Source: a virus
Virus record (IMG/VR): IMGVR_UViG_3300031718_000027
Coordinates: 1 to 37,126 of that record
Length of the DNA: 37,126 bases
Strand: one strand, 5' to 3'
A program made the translations under genes and the position numbers. Below the pieces are notes generated by a model that saw nothing but the letters and a program-made list of their open reading frames with translations, had not been told where the DNA came from and searched no databases. Positions 1 to 37,126 of the stretch are shown here, piece after piece (position 1 is the stretch's first letter; every line of letters starts with the position of its first letter).

Positions 1-72
1 CGGTTGACGGCGCGGTTCGCGGCGCGGTTGACGGCGCGGTTGACGGCGCGGTTGACGACGCGGTTCGCGACG
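1..72. repeat. Direct terminal repeat, left copy (72 bp)
   Basis: Bases 1-72 are identical to 37055-37126, read base by base. Such a repeat is usual when a circular or terminally redundant phage genome is assembled. However, it lies wholly within a 12-bp tandem array that also holds another internal 72-bp duplication (159-230 equals 387-458). The match could therefore come from array duplication rather than assembly overlap. Its length is a multiple of 12 and of 3, so removing one copy would keep the reading frame. Confidence 0.7.
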
Positions 73-768
73 CGGTTCGCGGCGCGGTTGACGGCGCGGT
101 TCGCGGCGCGGTTCGCGACGCGGTTGGCGGCGCGGTTGGCGGCGCGGTTGGCGACGCGGTTGACGACGCGGTTGACGACGCGGTTCGCGACGCGGTTCGC
201 GGCGCGGTTGACGGCGCGGTTCGCGACGCGGTTGACGGCGCGGTTCGCGACGCGGTTCGCGGCGCGGTTGACGGCGCGGTTGGCGACGCGGTTCGCGACG
301 CGGTTGACGGCGCGGTTCGCGGCGCGGTTGACGGCGCGGTTGACGGCGCGGTTGACGGCGCGGTTGACGGCGCGGTTGACGACGCGGTTGACGACGCGGT
401 TGACGACGCGGTTCGCGACGCGGTTCGCGGCGCGGTTGACGGCGCGGTTCGCGACGCGGTTGACGACGCGGTTCGCGGCGCGGTTGGCGGCGCGGTTGGC
501 GGCGCGGTTGGCGGCGCGGTTGACGACGCGGTTCGCGGCGCGGTTCGCGACGCGGTTGGCGGCGCGGTTGGCGGCGCGGTTGACGGCGCGGTTCGCGGCG
601 CGGTTGGCGGCGCGGTTGACGGTGCGGTTCGCGACGCGGTTGGCGGCGCGGTTGGCGGCGCGGTTCGCGACGCGGTTGGCGGCGCGGTTGGCGGCGCGGT
701 TGGCGACGCGGTTCGCGGCGCGGTTGACGACGCGGTTGGCGGCGCGGTTGGCGGCGCGGTTGACGAAA
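1..768 (+). repeat. 12-bp coding minisatellite, left part (63 full units plus one partial)
   Basis: The unit is GTT, then GAC, CGC or GGC, then GGC or GAC, then GCG. It encodes Val-(Asp/Arg/Gly)-(Gly/Asp)-Ala in the frame that starts at base 3. Of 63 full units I count 15 Asp-Gly, 9 Asp-Asp, 11 Arg-Gly, 11 Arg-Asp, 14 Gly-Gly and 3 Gly-Asp. The only synonymous difference I find is a GGT at 621-623. Longer blocks recur: bases 159-230 equal 387-458. The 12-base period keeps the frame whatever the copy number. The other open frame here, which reads Arg-Leu/Phe-Thr/Ala-Ala repeats, is a by-product of the period. Confidence 0.97.
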
Positions 769-1415
769 TAAAAAATAACTTCTGGAAAAGAATGGGCGGC
801 CAGTTCTGGCAATGGACCCAGTCATGGGCGACATTCTTTGTCGACGTATGCGGTCTTGACCTGGGAAATGAAATGGAATCACGGTTGCGCGCTTATTGTG
901 CAACCTCCGAATCTGCATGCTGGTGGTGGCCACATCGCGACTTCGTCATGGCCTGCGAACGGCCGACGCATATCGACCGCGACGAACAGGGGCGCCTCCA
1001 CTCGGTAACACGCGCCGCGATTCAGTGGCCCGATGGCTGGGGCCTGTATTCGTGGCATGGGACGACGATACCAGCGGAATGGATCACGTCTGGCGCGAAG
1101 CTGGATCCGAAAATCGCACTCACCGATCCATCGGTCGAGAGACGTCGAGCCGCCGCCGAAATCATCGGCTGGGCGCGTATCCTTGAGCAATTACCTCACC
1201 GCGTGATTGACGCGGATGTCGACCCTATGGTCGGCACTCTTCTGGAGGTGGACTTACCGGATGCGCCGAAGTCGCGGTTTATCCGCGTACTCTGCGGAAC
1301 TCAAAGGACGTTCTGCCTACCTGTGCCAAATGAGATGAAAACCGCCTTGGCGGCGAACGCCTGGACGTATGATGTTCCCGAAACCGTGATCCGAAAACTG
1401 GAGGCCCGCTCATGA
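3..1415 (+). CDS. DUF6745-type repeat protein, C-terminal part (gene continues from 36694 across the contig ends)
   Basis: The frame is open from base 3, through 63 Val-X-X-Ala units, into a non-repeat domain that ends at 1415. This is the second half of the gene that begins at 36694. The last base of the window plus bases 1-2 restore a GCG alanine codon, giving about 615 codons, or 591 if the 72-bp terminal copy is removed. The C-terminal domain carries a Trp-rich start (GGQFWQWTQSW), then CWWWPHRDFVMACERP at about 918-965 and DGWGLYSWHG near 1038-1067. I recognise these as typical of DUF6745 proteins, whose function is unknown. From memory, relatives often have short Val-containing tetrapeptide repeats between their N- and C-terminal domains. 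An ATG at 792 is in frame but has no ribosome site and lies inside the domain, so I do not take it as the start. The stop overlaps the next gene by 4 bases. Confidence 0.8.
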   Translation, partial: VDGAVRGAVDGAVDGAVDDAVRDAVRGAVDGAVRGAVRDAVGGAVGGAVGDAVDDAVDDAVRDAVRGAVDGAVRDAVDGAVRDAVRGAVDGAVGDAVRDAVDGAVRGAVDGAVDGAVDGAVDGAVDDAVDDAVDDAVRDAVRGAVDGAVRDAVDDAVRGAVGGAVGGAVGGAVDDAVRGAVRDAVGGAVGGAVDGAVRGAVGGAVDGAVRDAVGGAVGGAVRDAVGGAVGGAVGDAVRGAVDDAVGGAVGGAVDEIKNNFWKRMGGQFWQWTQSWATFFVDVCGLDLGNEMESRLRAYCATSESACWWWPHRDFVMACERPTHIDRDEQGRLHSVTRAAIQWPDGWGLYSWHGTTIPAEWITSGAKLDPKIALTDPSVERRRAAAEIIGWARILEQLPHRVIDADVDPMVGTLLEVDLPDAPKSRFIRVLCGTQRTFCLPVPNEMKTALAANAWTYDVPETVIRKLEARS

Positions 1416-2326: not shown

Positions 2327-2554
2327 GTGACGCGACAGCAGATTATCGACGACGCGCAGCAGGAACTTCCCCCGACCCGTCGCGACCAGGTGGCCGCCAC
2401 AACGCGCAACCTCGCGCGGTCCCGAGTCCCCGCGACGAGGCTCCCGACGCGTGCAGAGCTTGCGGCGCTTCGCGAGGAGGTGCGGGCCAAGAACTCCCGC
2501 GAGCGCGAACTGCCCAGCAGCGGTACGGGTGGGAGAGAGGGGGCTGCGAAGTGA
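2327..2554 (+). CDS. Small charged helical protein, hypothetical
   Basis: A 75-residue protein with a GTG start and AAAGGG upstream at about 2313-2318. It is rich in Arg, Glu, Gln and Ala and predicted helical (RAELAALREEVRAKNSRERE). No family is recognised. Its TGA overlaps the GTG of the PP-loop gene by 4 bases, so it may be translationally coupled to it. Confidence 0.5.
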   Translation: MTRQQIIDDAQQELPPTRRDQVAATTRNLARSRVPATRLPTRAELAALREEVRAKNSRERELPSSGTGGREGAAK

Positions 2555-3384
2555 GCGCCAGGGGACCGATGGGCATCGAAGTTTATAGGATGCTTCCCCG
2601 CATCTCGGTGCTGCGGTGGGGCGGCGGGGTCAACTCGACGGGATTGGCCTGTGAGATGGAGGAGCGCGGCGAGCGGCCCGACTTCATTTCGTTCTCCGAC
2701 ACGGGCGGTGAGAAGAAGGCAACGTATGCCTTCATCGCAGAGTTTCGCGCGTGGCTCAAATCGGTGAGCTGGCCCGATTTGACAATTGTCGGATACGAAA
2801 CCGAAGCCGGCGACAAGTCTTTGTATGACTATTCGATCCGCGTCTCCGAGTTGCCATCGAGGGCCTATGGGCTTGGCGGATGCGCCGACAAGTGGAAGAT
2901 CCGCCCTTTCGAGAAGTGGTCTAACCATCAGGCGCGCATCAAGGCTCTAAGGTCGGTGGGCGGCAAGCCCTGTGCCCTACTTGGCTACGACGCAGGCGAG
3001 GCGCACCGATACGCAAAGCGGGAGAATGAGCGCTGGACGTTCCGTGCTCCACTGATTGACTGGGGGATAGACCGCGACGGCTGTATCGCTGCGATCAAAC
3101 GCACGGGACTCCCCGTGCCTCCCAAGTCGGCTTGCTATTTTTGCCCGTCGAGCACGAAAGCGGAGATTCTCGCCCTATCAAAGAGGGAGATTGCCAATTC
3201 CCTGGCCATGGAAGACAAGGCGCGGGCCGCAGGCAAGCTAAAGACGGTCCAGGGTCTCGGTCGGCGCTTCTCGTGGCGCCAGTTTCTTGAGGCCGATGAA
3301 GCTGGTCGGGCACTGTTACCCGAGGCCCCGGTTGAGCCCTGTACCATGTGCGCAGACGACAGTGACGACAGGGAGGATTCATGA
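2551..3384 (+). CDS. PP-loop ATPase, PAPS-reductase-like
   Basis: A 277-residue protein of the adenine nucleotide alpha-hydrolase / PAPS reductase-like superfamily. Residues 20-31 read VLRWGGGVNSTG, a PP-loop for ATP or adenylyl binding. DTGGE at 50-54 matches the conserved Asp-Thr-Gly segment that follows the second strand. CYFCPSS at 195-201 is a CxxC that in relatives binds an iron-sulfur cluster or zinc. Such stand-alone PP-loop genes are common in phages. They are inferred to adenylate a substrate, in sulfur transfer or nucleobase modification, but the substrate here is unknown. GTG 2551 overlaps the previous stop; ATG 2569 or 2590 are alternative starts that keep the PP-loop. Confidence 0.85.
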   Translation: MSARGPMGIEVYRMLPRISVLRWGGGVNSTGLACEMEERGERPDFISFSDTGGEKKATYAFIAEFRAWLKSVSWPDLTIVGYETEAGDKSLYDYSIRVSELPSRAYGLGGCADKWKIRPFEKWSNHQARIKALRSVGGKPCALLGYDAGEAHRYAKRENERWTFRAPLIDWGIDRDGCIAAIKRTGLPVPPKSACYFCPSSTKAEILALSKREIANSLAMEDKARAAGKLKTVQGLGRRFSWRQFLEADEAGRALLPEAPVEPCTMCADDSDDREDS

Positions 3385-34466: not shown

Positions 34467-34708
34467 CCATGTTTCGTACCCTTACCGCCCACGAACTCAA
34501 GGCAATTCTCGACGCGCATCGCCTTTGGCGATCGAGTGAAGGCAAGGAAGGTTCGCGCGCGCCCAATTCGAATCGCCCGGCCGAGCGGCGGTTTCTCGGT
34601 ATCGGCAAGGGCTCGACGCCGGCCACGAACCAGGTGGCGGCGATTTCCGAGGGTTGGATTAACGAATGGCTCGCGGCGCATGTCGCCGCGGAGGAGGCTG
34701 GCAAGTGA
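34463..34708 (+). CDS. 81-residue protein resembling the leader part of pentapeptide-repeat proteins
   Basis: ATG 34463 overlaps the preceding stop. TAHELKAILDAHRLWRSSEG resembles the N-terminal segment that precedes pentapeptide repeats in many phage proteins, where it reads like L..IL..H..WL...GG. Here no repeats follow; the remainder is short and basic, then helical (SEGWINEWLAAHVAAEEAGK). It may be a shortened relic or a distinct small protein. Confidence 0.55.
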   Translation: MTMFRTLTAHELKAILDAHRLWRSSEGKEGSRAPNSNRPAERRFLGIGKGSTPATNQVAAISEGWINEWLAAHVAAEEAGK

Positions 34709-34935
34709 AAGCGCCCGCCTGTACGAAGCACGACGGCGATGCAATGGACCTCGACGAGTGCGCCGACTGCATCGCCTGGATGGAAGGCGAGGAGGCGTAC
34801 TGGTCGGCGTACTTCGGTGGCCCGTCAGTCATCAAGGCGACCGTCGCGAACGAGAAGTTCTACGCCGAGGAGTTGGGCATCGACATTGCGCACCCGACGG
34901 CGGAGACAATGGAGCAGCTCAGGAGGTTCAAGTGA
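34705..34935 (+). CDS. 76-residue protein with Cys/His start
   Basis: GTG 34705 overlaps the previous stop. It begins KAPACTKHDGDAMDLDECADC, a plausible Cys/His zinc site, then has an acidic and aromatic helix (AWMEGEEAYWSAYFGG). The longer frame from 34666 is not supported. No family is recognised. Confidence 0.6.
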   Translation: MKAPACTKHDGDAMDLDECADCIAWMEGEEAYWSAYFGGPSVIKATVANEKFYAEELGIDIAHPTAETMEQLRRFK

Positions 34936-36200
34936 GCGACGGCGAAGACACGCGGCTCGTCCCCTCGAACGGCCGCCAGCCCGCACTCCCGCCTGCCGAC
35001 GTCGCGGCCATCGCGCCGCCGCGCGACCCATACGTCGGTATCGGTCTCGCGCCGTGGACGCCCGACCAGCAGGCGATTCTCCGTCGCCCGCTCGCCGACG
35101 ACGAGATCGAAGTGCGCCCCGACGATGGCGTGCTCTACCTGCCGGGAGTGCGCTGGCGCATGCGGCTCAACGATGCGTTCGGCGTCGGCGGCTGGGGCCT
35201 CGCGCACCATGGCGATCCGAAGGTGAACGGGAACCAGGTGTTCGCGCCGATGCGGCTCTATGTGCTCGGCCGCTTCGCCGCGGAAGCCATGGGCGAGGGC
35301 AAGTGGATCGAGCGCAATCCCAAGTCCTCGTTCGGCACGGCGCTAGAGAGCGCCAAGACGGACGCGCTCGGGCGCTGCTGCAAGGACATGGGCATCGCGC
35401 TCGAACTCTGGGATCCGCGCTTCACGCGCAAGTGGCGCAGCGAGAACGTGATCCAGATTCGCAACCCGGACCCGTCGCGATTCGGGAGCGCGCCGAAGGT
35501 CTGGGTCCGCAAGGATGACCCATGCGTCGCGAAGGACTCGCCGCGCGACCCGCCAGCGCCCGAGGCAGAATCTGCGGCGCCCGTCGTCGTGACCGAGGCT
35601 GCGAAAACGGCGGCGAAGGTGCCCGCGACGGGCGGCCCCATTACACCCGAGCAAATCACGATGATTCACACGCTCAGGTCCAAGGTCGGCGGCCTCACCG
35701 ACGAGACCTATCGCAAGACGATTGCCGTCTACCGCAAGGCCGATGGCTCCCGCTGCGTCGGAGAAGACGGCAAGGGCACCAGCAAGGCCCTCAGCAAAGA
35801 CCAAGCGTCGCACTACATCGGGCGCCTGGAGGACCAGATCCACAAGCAGCACATGCGCATCGACGAGCGCGTTGACACGACGGCCGACGATCTGGAAGCC
35901 GTCACCGGGAAGCCGATCGACTTCGACGACGCGCCAATCGACGCGCCGCCTGTGAACGCAAGCGGGAAGAAGTGGGCGCCGAAGACGCCCACACTCGAGG
36001 AGCTGCTGGAGACGCATCTGTCGGACCCCGAGGACCCCGAGGCCAAGGGCGCATGGCTTGAGGCGATGTTCGGCCTGCGCCACGTCCAGGAGTTGAGCGA
36101 CGAGGAAGTCAAGACGGCATTCGCGTTGCTCTCGGTGTTCGGGACGCCAGAGTATGATGGCCGCGAGGCGGCATGCAGGGCAATAGGCAAGATTCGATGA
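34932..36200 (+). CDS. Rad52/Mgm101-type single-strand annealing protein
   Basis: A 422-residue protein; GTG 34932 overlaps the previous stop. Residues about 77-160 carry MRLNDAFGVGGWGL, VLGRFAAEAMG and ALESAKTDALGRCCKDMGIA followed by LELWDPRF. This pattern is that of Mgm101 and the Rad52 superfamily, which anneal single strands and promote recombination. The region after about 190 is a linker, then a helical domain (TPEQITMIHTLRSKVGGLTD) and an acidic end. It is the only recognisable DNA-metabolism gene in the rightward early region and is likely central to recombination-dependent replication and end repair. Confidence 0.85.
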   Translation: MSDGEDTRLVPSNGRQPALPPADVAAIAPPRDPYVGIGLAPWTPDQQAILRRPLADDEIEVRPDDGVLYLPGVRWRMRLNDAFGVGGWGLAHHGDPKVNGNQVFAPMRLYVLGRFAAEAMGEGKWIERNPKSSFGTALESAKTDALGRCCKDMGIALELWDPRFTRKWRSENVIQIRNPDPSRFGSAPKVWVRKDDPCVAKDSPRDPPAPEAESAAPVVVTEAAKTAAKVPATGGPITPEQITMIHTLRSKVGGLTDETYRKTIAVYRKADGSRCVGEDGKGTSKALSKDQASHYIGRLEDQIHKQHMRIDERVDTTADDLEAVTGKPIDFDDAPIDAPPVNASGKKWAPKTPTLEELLETHLSDPEDPEAKGAWLEAMFGLRHVQELSDEEVKTAFALLSVFGTPEYDGREAACRAIGKIR

Positions 36201-36697
36201 GTTTCCCGACCTTCTGCGACGCCTGCAAAGCGCGCGTGGAATGGCACCCGACGCACAACGGTAAGTCGATGCCCATCGACCCCGATCCGCACGCCGAGGG
36301 CCGATTCTACTTCGGCGCCGGGTTGAAGCTCCACGTCGGGCGCGCCGGCATTCGCCCGCGCATGTACCGGTGTCACTGGGATACCTGCGCGAAGGGTCAC
36401 GACGCGAGCAAGCGCGCACTTCGCGGGAACTACTCGGAGCGAGCCGACCAGTGCGATCGTTGGAACTGCGAGCGCGACCCCGACGACGGACACCGGCACT
36501 GTTTCAAGTGCGGCGACGTGGAGCGCCTCAACCCGACGCGCGTCCGCACGCTGACCCGCACGGCCGACCCGGCGGTAGCCTTTGCCGTCGCGAGAATTTG
36601 GGCGGCGATGCAACCCTCGGATAGTCGGATCGTCGTCACGAACCCAAGCGGCAAGTATGCCGTCAAGATTGAACGCCACGAACAGGAGATCATATGA
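36197..36697 (+). CDS. Cys/His-rich protein, hypothetical
   Basis: A 166-residue protein. ATG 36197 overlaps the annealing-protein stop by 4 bases; an upstream in-frame ATG at 36173 would add eight residues. It has several potential zinc sites: CDACKARVEWHPTHNGKSMP near 7-26, CHWDTCAKGH near 58-67, and CDRWNCERDPDDGHRHCFKC near 85-104. MPIDPDP in the first block recalls small phage zinc proteins that sit near replication genes. It could assist the annealing protein. No family is recognised. Confidence 0.7.
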   Translation: MSFPTFCDACKARVEWHPTHNGKSMPIDPDPHAEGRFYFGAGLKLHVGRAGIRPRMYRCHWDTCAKGHDASKRALRGNYSERADQCDRWNCERDPDDGHRHCFKCGDVERLNPTRVRTLTRTADPAVAFAVARIWAAMQPSDSRIVVTNPSGKYAVKIERHEQEII

Positions 36698-37126
36698 GAC
36701 GCGTCAAGCGAATCGACAAACTCACGCCGGCCCAGGAAGCCCGTTTCGCCGAGTGGCGCGATAAATACATCGCCATTGGATTGCGCACAGGACAGGCCGA
36801 TCGCGCTCGCTTTGAAGCGGCCATTCCTGAATGCTACCGCGGCGCTGGCCTGCCACCACCGAAACGAATCGTGTGGGTATCTTCTCCGTTGGTGCTCTCG
36901 CTTGCGGCGCCAATCGCAAATATGATTCTTCGTGATCATCGCGGCGCGGTTGGCGGCGCGGTTGACGGCGCGGTTGGCGGCGCGGTTGGCGGCGCGGTTG
37001 GCGACGCGGTTGGCGACGCGGTTCGCGGCGCGGTTGACGGCGCGGTTCGCGACGCGGTTGACGGCGCGGTTCGCGGCGCGGTTGACGGCGCGGTTGACGG
37101 CGCGGTTGACGACGCGGTTCGCGACG
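36694..37126 (+). CDS. DUF6745-type repeat protein, N-terminal part (continues at base 1 of the window)
   Basis: ATG 36694 follows AGGAG with good spacing and overlaps the previous stop by 4 bases. The N-terminal 80 residues (TPAQEARFAEWRDKYIAIGL, then RIVWVSSPLVLSLAAPIANM) match the start of DUF6745 proteins as I know them. From about residue 83 the protein is Val-X-X-Ala repeats to the contig end. The frame joins exactly with base 3 of the window, giving one gene that ends at 1415. The true copy number is uncertain because the assembly opens here. Confidence 0.8.
   Translation, partial: MRRVKRIDKLTPAQEARFAEWRDKYIAIGLRTGQADRARFEAAIPECYRGAGLPPPKRIVWVSSPLVLSLAAPIANMILRDHRGAVGGAVDGAVGGAVGGAVGDAVGDAVRGAVDGAVRDAVDGAVRGAVDGAVDGAVDDAVRD
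36943..37126 (+). repeat. 12-bp coding minisatellite, right part (14 full units plus partial)
   Basis: Same unit as at bases 1-768. The first GTT is at 36949. The order of residue pairs at the variable positions is GG, DG, GG, GG, GD, GD, RG, DG, RD, DG, RG, DG, DG, DD, RD. No synonymous change is seen here. Confidence 0.97.
37055..37126. repeat. Direct terminal repeat, right copy (72 bp)
   Basis: Identical to bases 1-72. No longer suffix of the window matches its start. See the left copy for the ambiguity caused by the tandem array. Confidence 0.7.

Follow-up and report, generated by a model that had tools for sequence, protein, structure and literature searches.

Uniform silent positions and diverse amino acids in a tetrapeptide repeat array of DUF6745-family phage genes

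We describe a coding tandem-repeat array, and the DUF6745-family phage gene in which it lies, in a stretch of viral DNA of 37,126 nucleotides (IMG/VR record IMGVR_UViG_3300031718_000027, positions 1 to 37,126; the whole stretch is hereafter called the window). With the frame starting at base 3, positions 3-770 hold 64 units of 12 bp, the final one (VDEI) merging into the next domain, and a further 15 units lie at the other end of the window (36946-37125). Counted in the GCG-first phase, these give 63 + 15 = 78 units encoding Ala-Val-x-y, written GCG GTT (GAC/CGC/GGC)(GGC/GAC). Codon 1 is GCG and codon 2 is GTT in 78/78 units, codon 3 is restricted to GAC, CGC or GGC, and codon 4 is GGC or GAC save for a single GGT at 621-623, the one silent change, and a GAA in the edge unit. 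Exact matches to the strict pattern GCGGTTSRCGRC number 76 in the window, and every one lies within the two array pieces (0.27 expected from shuffles); these pieces were the sole tandem repeats that Tandem Repeats Finder detected there. A first-pass annotation had reported a 12-bp coding repeat of about 77 units at 1-768, with near-invariant silent positions and one silent change. Apart from the edge unit, that description of the codons holds; the location is right as far as it goes, but the feature is one gene that crosses the contig ends and also occupies 36946-37126, and the earlier unit figure already included units at the far end.

Because 36946-37126 and 1-768 share one reading frame, we infer that both array pieces belong to one gene split inside the array by the contig ends. 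This gene would run from an ATG at 36694 through an N-terminal domain of 84 residues, the array and a DUF6745 domain to a stop codon at 1413-1415. The N-terminal domain carries the motif IGLRTG.ADR..FE...CY..AGL..P..IVWVSSPLV..LAAP, and the C-terminal domain belongs to DUF6745 (PF20530) by a hidden Markov model (HMM) match well over the curated cut-off. In complete relatives the same N-terminal domain precedes the array and the order of N-terminal domain, array and DUF6745 is the same; the window has all three in one open reading frame (ORF), given the inferred join. The contig ends have an exact 72-bp overlap in common; should it be redundant, the array has 73 units, and otherwise at least 79. 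Matches to Gly-zipper_OmpA (PF13436) fall in the low-complexity repeat, scoring 46.5 bits for window 3-1412 (cut-off 27, with no single stretch passing) and 21 bits, below the cut-off, for 36694-37125.

The uniformity of the array is due neither to chance nor to codon bias. GTT makes up 7.8% of the 346 Val codons in 11 ORFs outside the array, against 78/78 within it, and GCG makes up 43.7% of the 689 Ala codons in the same ORFs, which are probable genes, mostly without a family match, and which include the DUF6745 part of the array gene and two ORFs that overlap mutually in different frames. The expected codon heterozygosity is 0.60-0.67 for Ala, Val, Gly and Arg and 0.35 for Asp, while the array shows 0 to 0.03.

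We then placed this array among its relatives. Searches with the DUF6745 domain yielded 12 viral loci, the top 80 of 108 viral loci from a profile search (the two sets overlap), 42 bacterial loci and 11 phage records, three of which were opened. A DNA-pattern search yielded 20 stretches with arrays in ORFs that carry family N-terminal or DUF6745 motifs, recognised by visual inspection and expression matching and not by HMM. A detector of amino acid period 4, run on the 129 loci with a DUF6745 match, found arrays in 78/87 viral or phage loci and 11/42 bacterial loci, some of them short and a few small ones doubtful (for example L004, 3 units); the other 31/42 bacterial loci had no array by this detector. 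Eight of the 11 phage records with DUF6745 are Microcystis phages and one is a cyanophage; the one Microcystis phage opened, LMM01, had no array by the period-4 detector. Mycobacterium prophiGD102-1 and a Manatee Spring phage have DUF6745 with an array. Of the bacterial arrays in the scanned loci, the longest lies in a single-cell assembly (L048, 2-841), with 70 Ser-Val-x-y units and AGC GTG in 70/70. The scaffold varies by lineage (Ala-Val, Gln-Val, Ser-Val, Asn-Leu, Gln-Leu, Ser-Leu, Ala-Thr, Ala-Ala and others), and its silent codons differ between lineages and are near-uniform inside each array.

Silent uniformity together with replacement diversity is a property of the family. Among 86 arrays of at least 10 units, near-copies included, the proportion of replacement variants (pN) exceeded that of silent variants (pS) in 85, and 67 had no silent variant. 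A non-redundant set was made by leaving out near-copies (L104, which is a truncated copy of L105, and L146, L087 and L054), arrays of fewer than 10 units and both edge units of every array, and by pooling as one the two ends of the window and four other pairs of pieces (L015 and L016 being assumed to come from one phage). Its 78 arrays and 2,349 units hold 84 silent and 2,215 replacement variant codons; 60 arrays have no silent variant, and replacement variants are kept in all 78. Minor bases at codon positions 1, 2 and 3 number 1,199, 1,340 and 175, respectively. When each variant codon type is counted once per array, there are 25 silent and 344 replacement types, whereas 27% silent would be expected from single-base opportunity (binomial p about 5e-23, with types treated as independent). 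The picture is unchanged without the loci known solely from the DNA pattern: 69 arrays (61 from viral contigs, the window included, 6 bacterial and 2 from phage records) hold 77 silent and 1,891 replacement variants. The non-redundant arrays span roughly 37 scaffold types, although five of the 37 rows look mis-phased, with y more variable than x.

The residues at the most variable position are drawn from a restricted palette. Across the 86 arrays, this position is Arg in 28%, Gly in 26%, Asp in 16%, Trp in 10% and Tyr in 6%, followed by Ser, Glu, His and Asn, and aliphatic residues are rare. In 73/86 arrays at least 95% of the codons at this position have the same third base, and the palette is therefore mainly Gly/Arg/Trp/Glu with G as third base and mainly Gly/Asp/Arg/Tyr/His/Ser/Asn with C or T. 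Similar palettes recur on approximately 37 scaffold types. It is conceivable, though doubtful, that the array is an evolvable recognition surface and not a mere length spacer; every tetrapeptide would then contribute one residue from the restricted palette, and the order of units over 20-100 modules would encode partner specificity that recombination re-deals faster than point mutation.

Comparison of closely related contigs points to turnover of units in some relatives. L086 and L087, two IMG/VR records from different samples judging by their record numbers, are identical at all 6,090 aligned flank bases and have 30 and 31 units, with one unit inserted. L054 and L154 share 99.95% identity over 3,784 bases and have 5 and at least 12 units, respectively, the comparison covering the downstream side and the last units only, since L154 begins inside the array. 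Repeated blocks were longer than in shuffles in 18/76 arrays (p<=0.05), and the 5' piece of the window gave p=0.01; the 76-array set, like the 86-array set, still holds near-copies. Single-unit slippage as the sole process was rejected: adjacent identical units were enriched in 3/76 arrays and depleted in 4/76 (p<=0.05), which is about the chance level. Our searches returned no near-identical second record of the window phage, although such records may be left out of the results.

Contig ends are concentrated at the array. They fall within 1.5 kb upstream of DUF6745 in 34/80 viral contigs and downstream in 1/80, with about 4 expected per side, and 25/80 viral contigs begin inside the array. 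Many IMG/VR phage contigs start or end in the array, and some have it at both ends; where it stands at both ends, the gene is split and its size is underestimated in databases.

A similar array is already known from mycobacteriophage Tweety, in which gp54 (PHROG 3416) has a 12-bp/tetrapeptide array between two unique end domains. Passages of PMC2884959 give it 48 units of 12 bp, with the first two residues invariant alanines and the third codon positions invariant, and report that its authors judged the pattern consistent with selection for variation. Re-reading the gene, we counted 49 units with the edge unit; the scaffold codons GCC GCA are invariant, as are the third bases of the other two codons, and the replacements are Gly/Trp/Gln and Ser/Tyr. 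DUF6745 arrays show the same signature of invariant scaffold codons and third bases with variable first and second bases. Matching records numbered 148 with duplicates, and 11 Tweety-group isolates among them were opened. In four of these the 406-nt N-terminal region is identical, yet they have 49, 39, 31 and 17 units and five others have 14 to 19, while silent variants occur in 2/11 (Melissauren88 with 2 and Aubs with 3). In phages Akhila and MilanaBonita (L165, L166) a Tweety-like gene has a degenerate array (ATRHAAESAAES...), possibly a decayed state. Passages of PMC9262239 and PMC8549241 describe gp54 as a counter-defence protein, with escape mutants on the Phrann or MichelleMyBell prophage defences gaining or losing repeats. 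Tests for a shared domain gave no DUF6745 match in gp54, and neither the window pieces nor five DUF6745 relatives matched PHROG 3416; the DUF6745 family profile scored 3.5 bits on gp54, aligned mainly over the repeats. The Bbp36 protein of Bordetella phages BPP-1/BMP-1 also carries, in its variable region VR2, an in-frame 24-bp tandem repeat whose copy number varies between isolates, according to passages of PMC2884959. With DUF7666, GTATAGYR octapeptides, little residue variation and no DUF6745, BPP-1 Bbp36 is a third, unrelated architecture.

The first-pass annotation had gone on to propose recent or continuing expansion and recombination that yields Asp/Arg/Gly charge patterns. Changes of count and order with fixed flanks (L086/L087 and the Tweety group) agree with the first part, but turnover alone is insufficient to explain the pattern, and charge alone is too narrow for a family whose x palette is mainly Arg, Gly, Asp, Trp, Tyr, Ser, Glu, His and Asn. 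The contrast it had seen between silent and replacement positions is real and family-wide. It had regarded a shared unit order and count in relatives, or many silent changes in better assemblies, as evidence to the contrary; relatives in fact differ in unit order and count, and silent changes are few in the 11 isolate genomes of the analogous Tweety gene.

Structure prediction distinguished the end domains from the array. AlphaFold models of L019 and L086, built on alignments of 32 and 25 relatives, were mostly confident in the end domains and poor in the array. The predicted local distance difference test (pLDDT) score was mostly 87-97 in the N-terminal domain of the L019 model and roughly 31-64 by blocks in the array of both models, with a helical tendency; in one model the array takes the form of a long helix (residues 110-186) of low pLDDT. 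The L019 model resembled no known fold that we recognised; its best VIA-align match (Z 4.8, root mean square deviation 3.6, 59 residues aligned) is given without interpretation, and a viral structure library returned four matches at E<=0.001, two named DUF6745 and two uncharacterised.

The features of the array gene and its neighbours are listed in Table 1. In the window the array gene lies near an Mgm101p gene and a gene resembling phosphoadenosine phosphosulfate (PAPS) reductase, rather than terminase or head-tail adaptor genes, and its product is probably an accessory, non-structural phage protein of the DUF6745 family. The Mgm101p-family gene, a phage gene 0.5 kb upstream of the array gene, encodes what we take to be a Rad52-like annealing protein of the mitochondrial genome maintenance type, and is a possible driver of repeat recombination in the window phage.

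Table 1. Coordinates of the array gene and neighbouring genes in the window.
Feature	Position	Strand	Evidence
N-terminal domain of array gene, 84 codons	36694..36945	+	Translation; ATG at 36694
5' array part, 15 units GCG GTT x y, running off contig end	36946..37126	+	
3' array part, frame starting at base 3; final unit grading into next domain	1..768	+	
DUF6745 domain (PF20530) and stop codon	768..1415	+	Pfam E 2.2e-30, 105.9 bits, cut-off 27
Mgm101p (PF06420) gene, neighbour	34536..36200	+	Pfam E 5.5e-43
PAPS reductase-like gene, downstream of array gene	2551-3384		PHROG 424

The array is most likely phage coding sequence in which recombination keeps silent sites uniform and selection keeps amino acid diversity. 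Homogenization that erases silent variants should fix one x/y type too, which leads us to selection on the protein for variety; by this reasoning, selection as the keeper of x/y diversity is strongly supported. The evolutionary mechanism as a whole, with unit turnover homogenizing the repeats and protein selection keeping diversity, appears highly probable. Recombination or slippage among near-identical 12-bp units would add, remove and duplicate units and blocks, this turnover would keep silent positions uniform in each phage lineage, and protein selection would keep the residue mix at two of every four positions and probably also length changes. In the protein, we somewhat favour the view that the array serves as a hypervariable segment, at once spacer and recognition element, flanked by two folded domains. 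Its length and residue pattern may tune contacts with a variable partner, whether these are made by the end domains or by the array. The partner would most likely be a defence complex encoded by the host or by a prophage, and copy-number change would let the phage re-tune quickly. Tuning of partner recognition is taken as the most likely role because in gp54 array length is linked with the recognition of a defence complex; that DUF6745 arrays tune counter-defence is, by this analogy, plausible but tentative.

Four other explanations are less likely. If the array were a neutral or tolerated minisatellite in a disordered linker, its diversity unselected, recent expansion of a few founder units would account for the missing silent variants, and the low array pLDDT in both models and the freely variable copy number of the analogous Tweety gene would fit. 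Neutral turnover, however, erases both classes of variant, yet replacement variants are present in 78/78 arrays, 60 of them without silent ones, and similar restricted palettes occur on many scaffold types with different silent codons; we find this explanation improbable. Somewhat less so, but still unlikely, is a structural or length-ruler role, in which the array forms a long helix or rod and x/y variety merely avoids aggregation or recombination problems. The helix drawn in one model and the variation of array length between relatives speak for it, as does the emphasis on repeat number in passages of the Tweety reviews (PMC9262239, PMC8549241), whereas pLDDT is low across the modelled helix, the window gene is not beside terminase or head-tail adaptor genes, and arrays of the analogous Tweety group that follow identical N-terminal DNA vary in length by a factor of nearly three.

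Conservation of the DNA itself for binding, as in a set of replication iterons or a packaging or recombination site inside the gene, would agree with the invariant GCGGTT core, which is found in many phages (the search required this core), and with the strict 12-bp spacing. However, relatives encode Ala-Val by GCC GTC, GCG GTG, GCG GTC or GCT GTG, others have Gln-Val, Ser-Val, Asn-Leu, Gln-Leu or Ala-Thr scaffolds in the same position, and it is the tetrapeptide frame and the flanking domains that are kept, all of which makes such an element very improbable. In the variable regions of diversity-generating retroelements, variation is likewise directed to amino acid-changing positions, and targeted mutagenesis of this kind could write variation into codons x and y. 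No reverse transcriptase (PF00078) was found in 24 viral records including the window, although these may be incomplete; the single PF00078 match among 25 records is in a bacterial single-cell assembly. The window has no unit copy outside the array that could serve as template, and the variants are not adenine-specific. We consider targeted mutagenesis the least credible of the explanations, to be given hardly any weight.

Several observations weigh against selection acting on a recombining array that tunes partner recognition. Silent variants are present in 18/78 non-redundant arrays; L012, L103, L105, L125, L137 and L141 have at least 6 each, and in L125 pS is slightly above pN. Both arrays are complete in two near-identical pairs, and in one of these, L138 and L146, the 34 units do not differ. 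Repeated blocks did not go beyond shuffles in 58/76 arrays, so that unit order looks mostly shuffled and not block-duplicated, and short-read assembly may misplace or collapse units, which weakens the evidence from contig pairs. A recombinase as family-wide driver was rejected: Mgm101p was found in 1/24 records (the window alone) and in 0/23 others, other annealing-protein families not having been searched. DUF6745 lacks a detectable array in 9/87 viral or phage loci, including L100, which is cut off at the domain, and the array is therefore not indispensable. In our searches DUF6745 had no recorded function, and the literature searched contained no paper that mentions DUF6745 or PF20530. There was no match in the PADLOC defence database for four proteins tested and no solved relative (nothing under E 0.09 in a PDB sequence search, and nothing at E<=0.001 with Foldseek and the L019 model). 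The end domains of gp54 share nothing with the DUF6745 family in the tests made, and since no end domain is common to both, the functional step is an analogy.

In conclusion, this kind of array was already known from Tweety gp54, whereas for its DUF6745 branch, and for a family-wide rule of silent uniformity with replacement diversity, we found no account among the papers listed in searches on tandem repeats, minisatellites, Tweety and anti-defense. The array explains why phage contigs frequently break in the DUF6745 gene, and unit counts from short reads are unreliable. The occurrence of the same signature on many scaffold types in an unrelated and apparently widespread phage family turns a curiosity of Tweety gp54 into a recurring strategy, and by analogy with gp54, DUF6745 proteins may be regarded as candidate tunable counter-defence factors.
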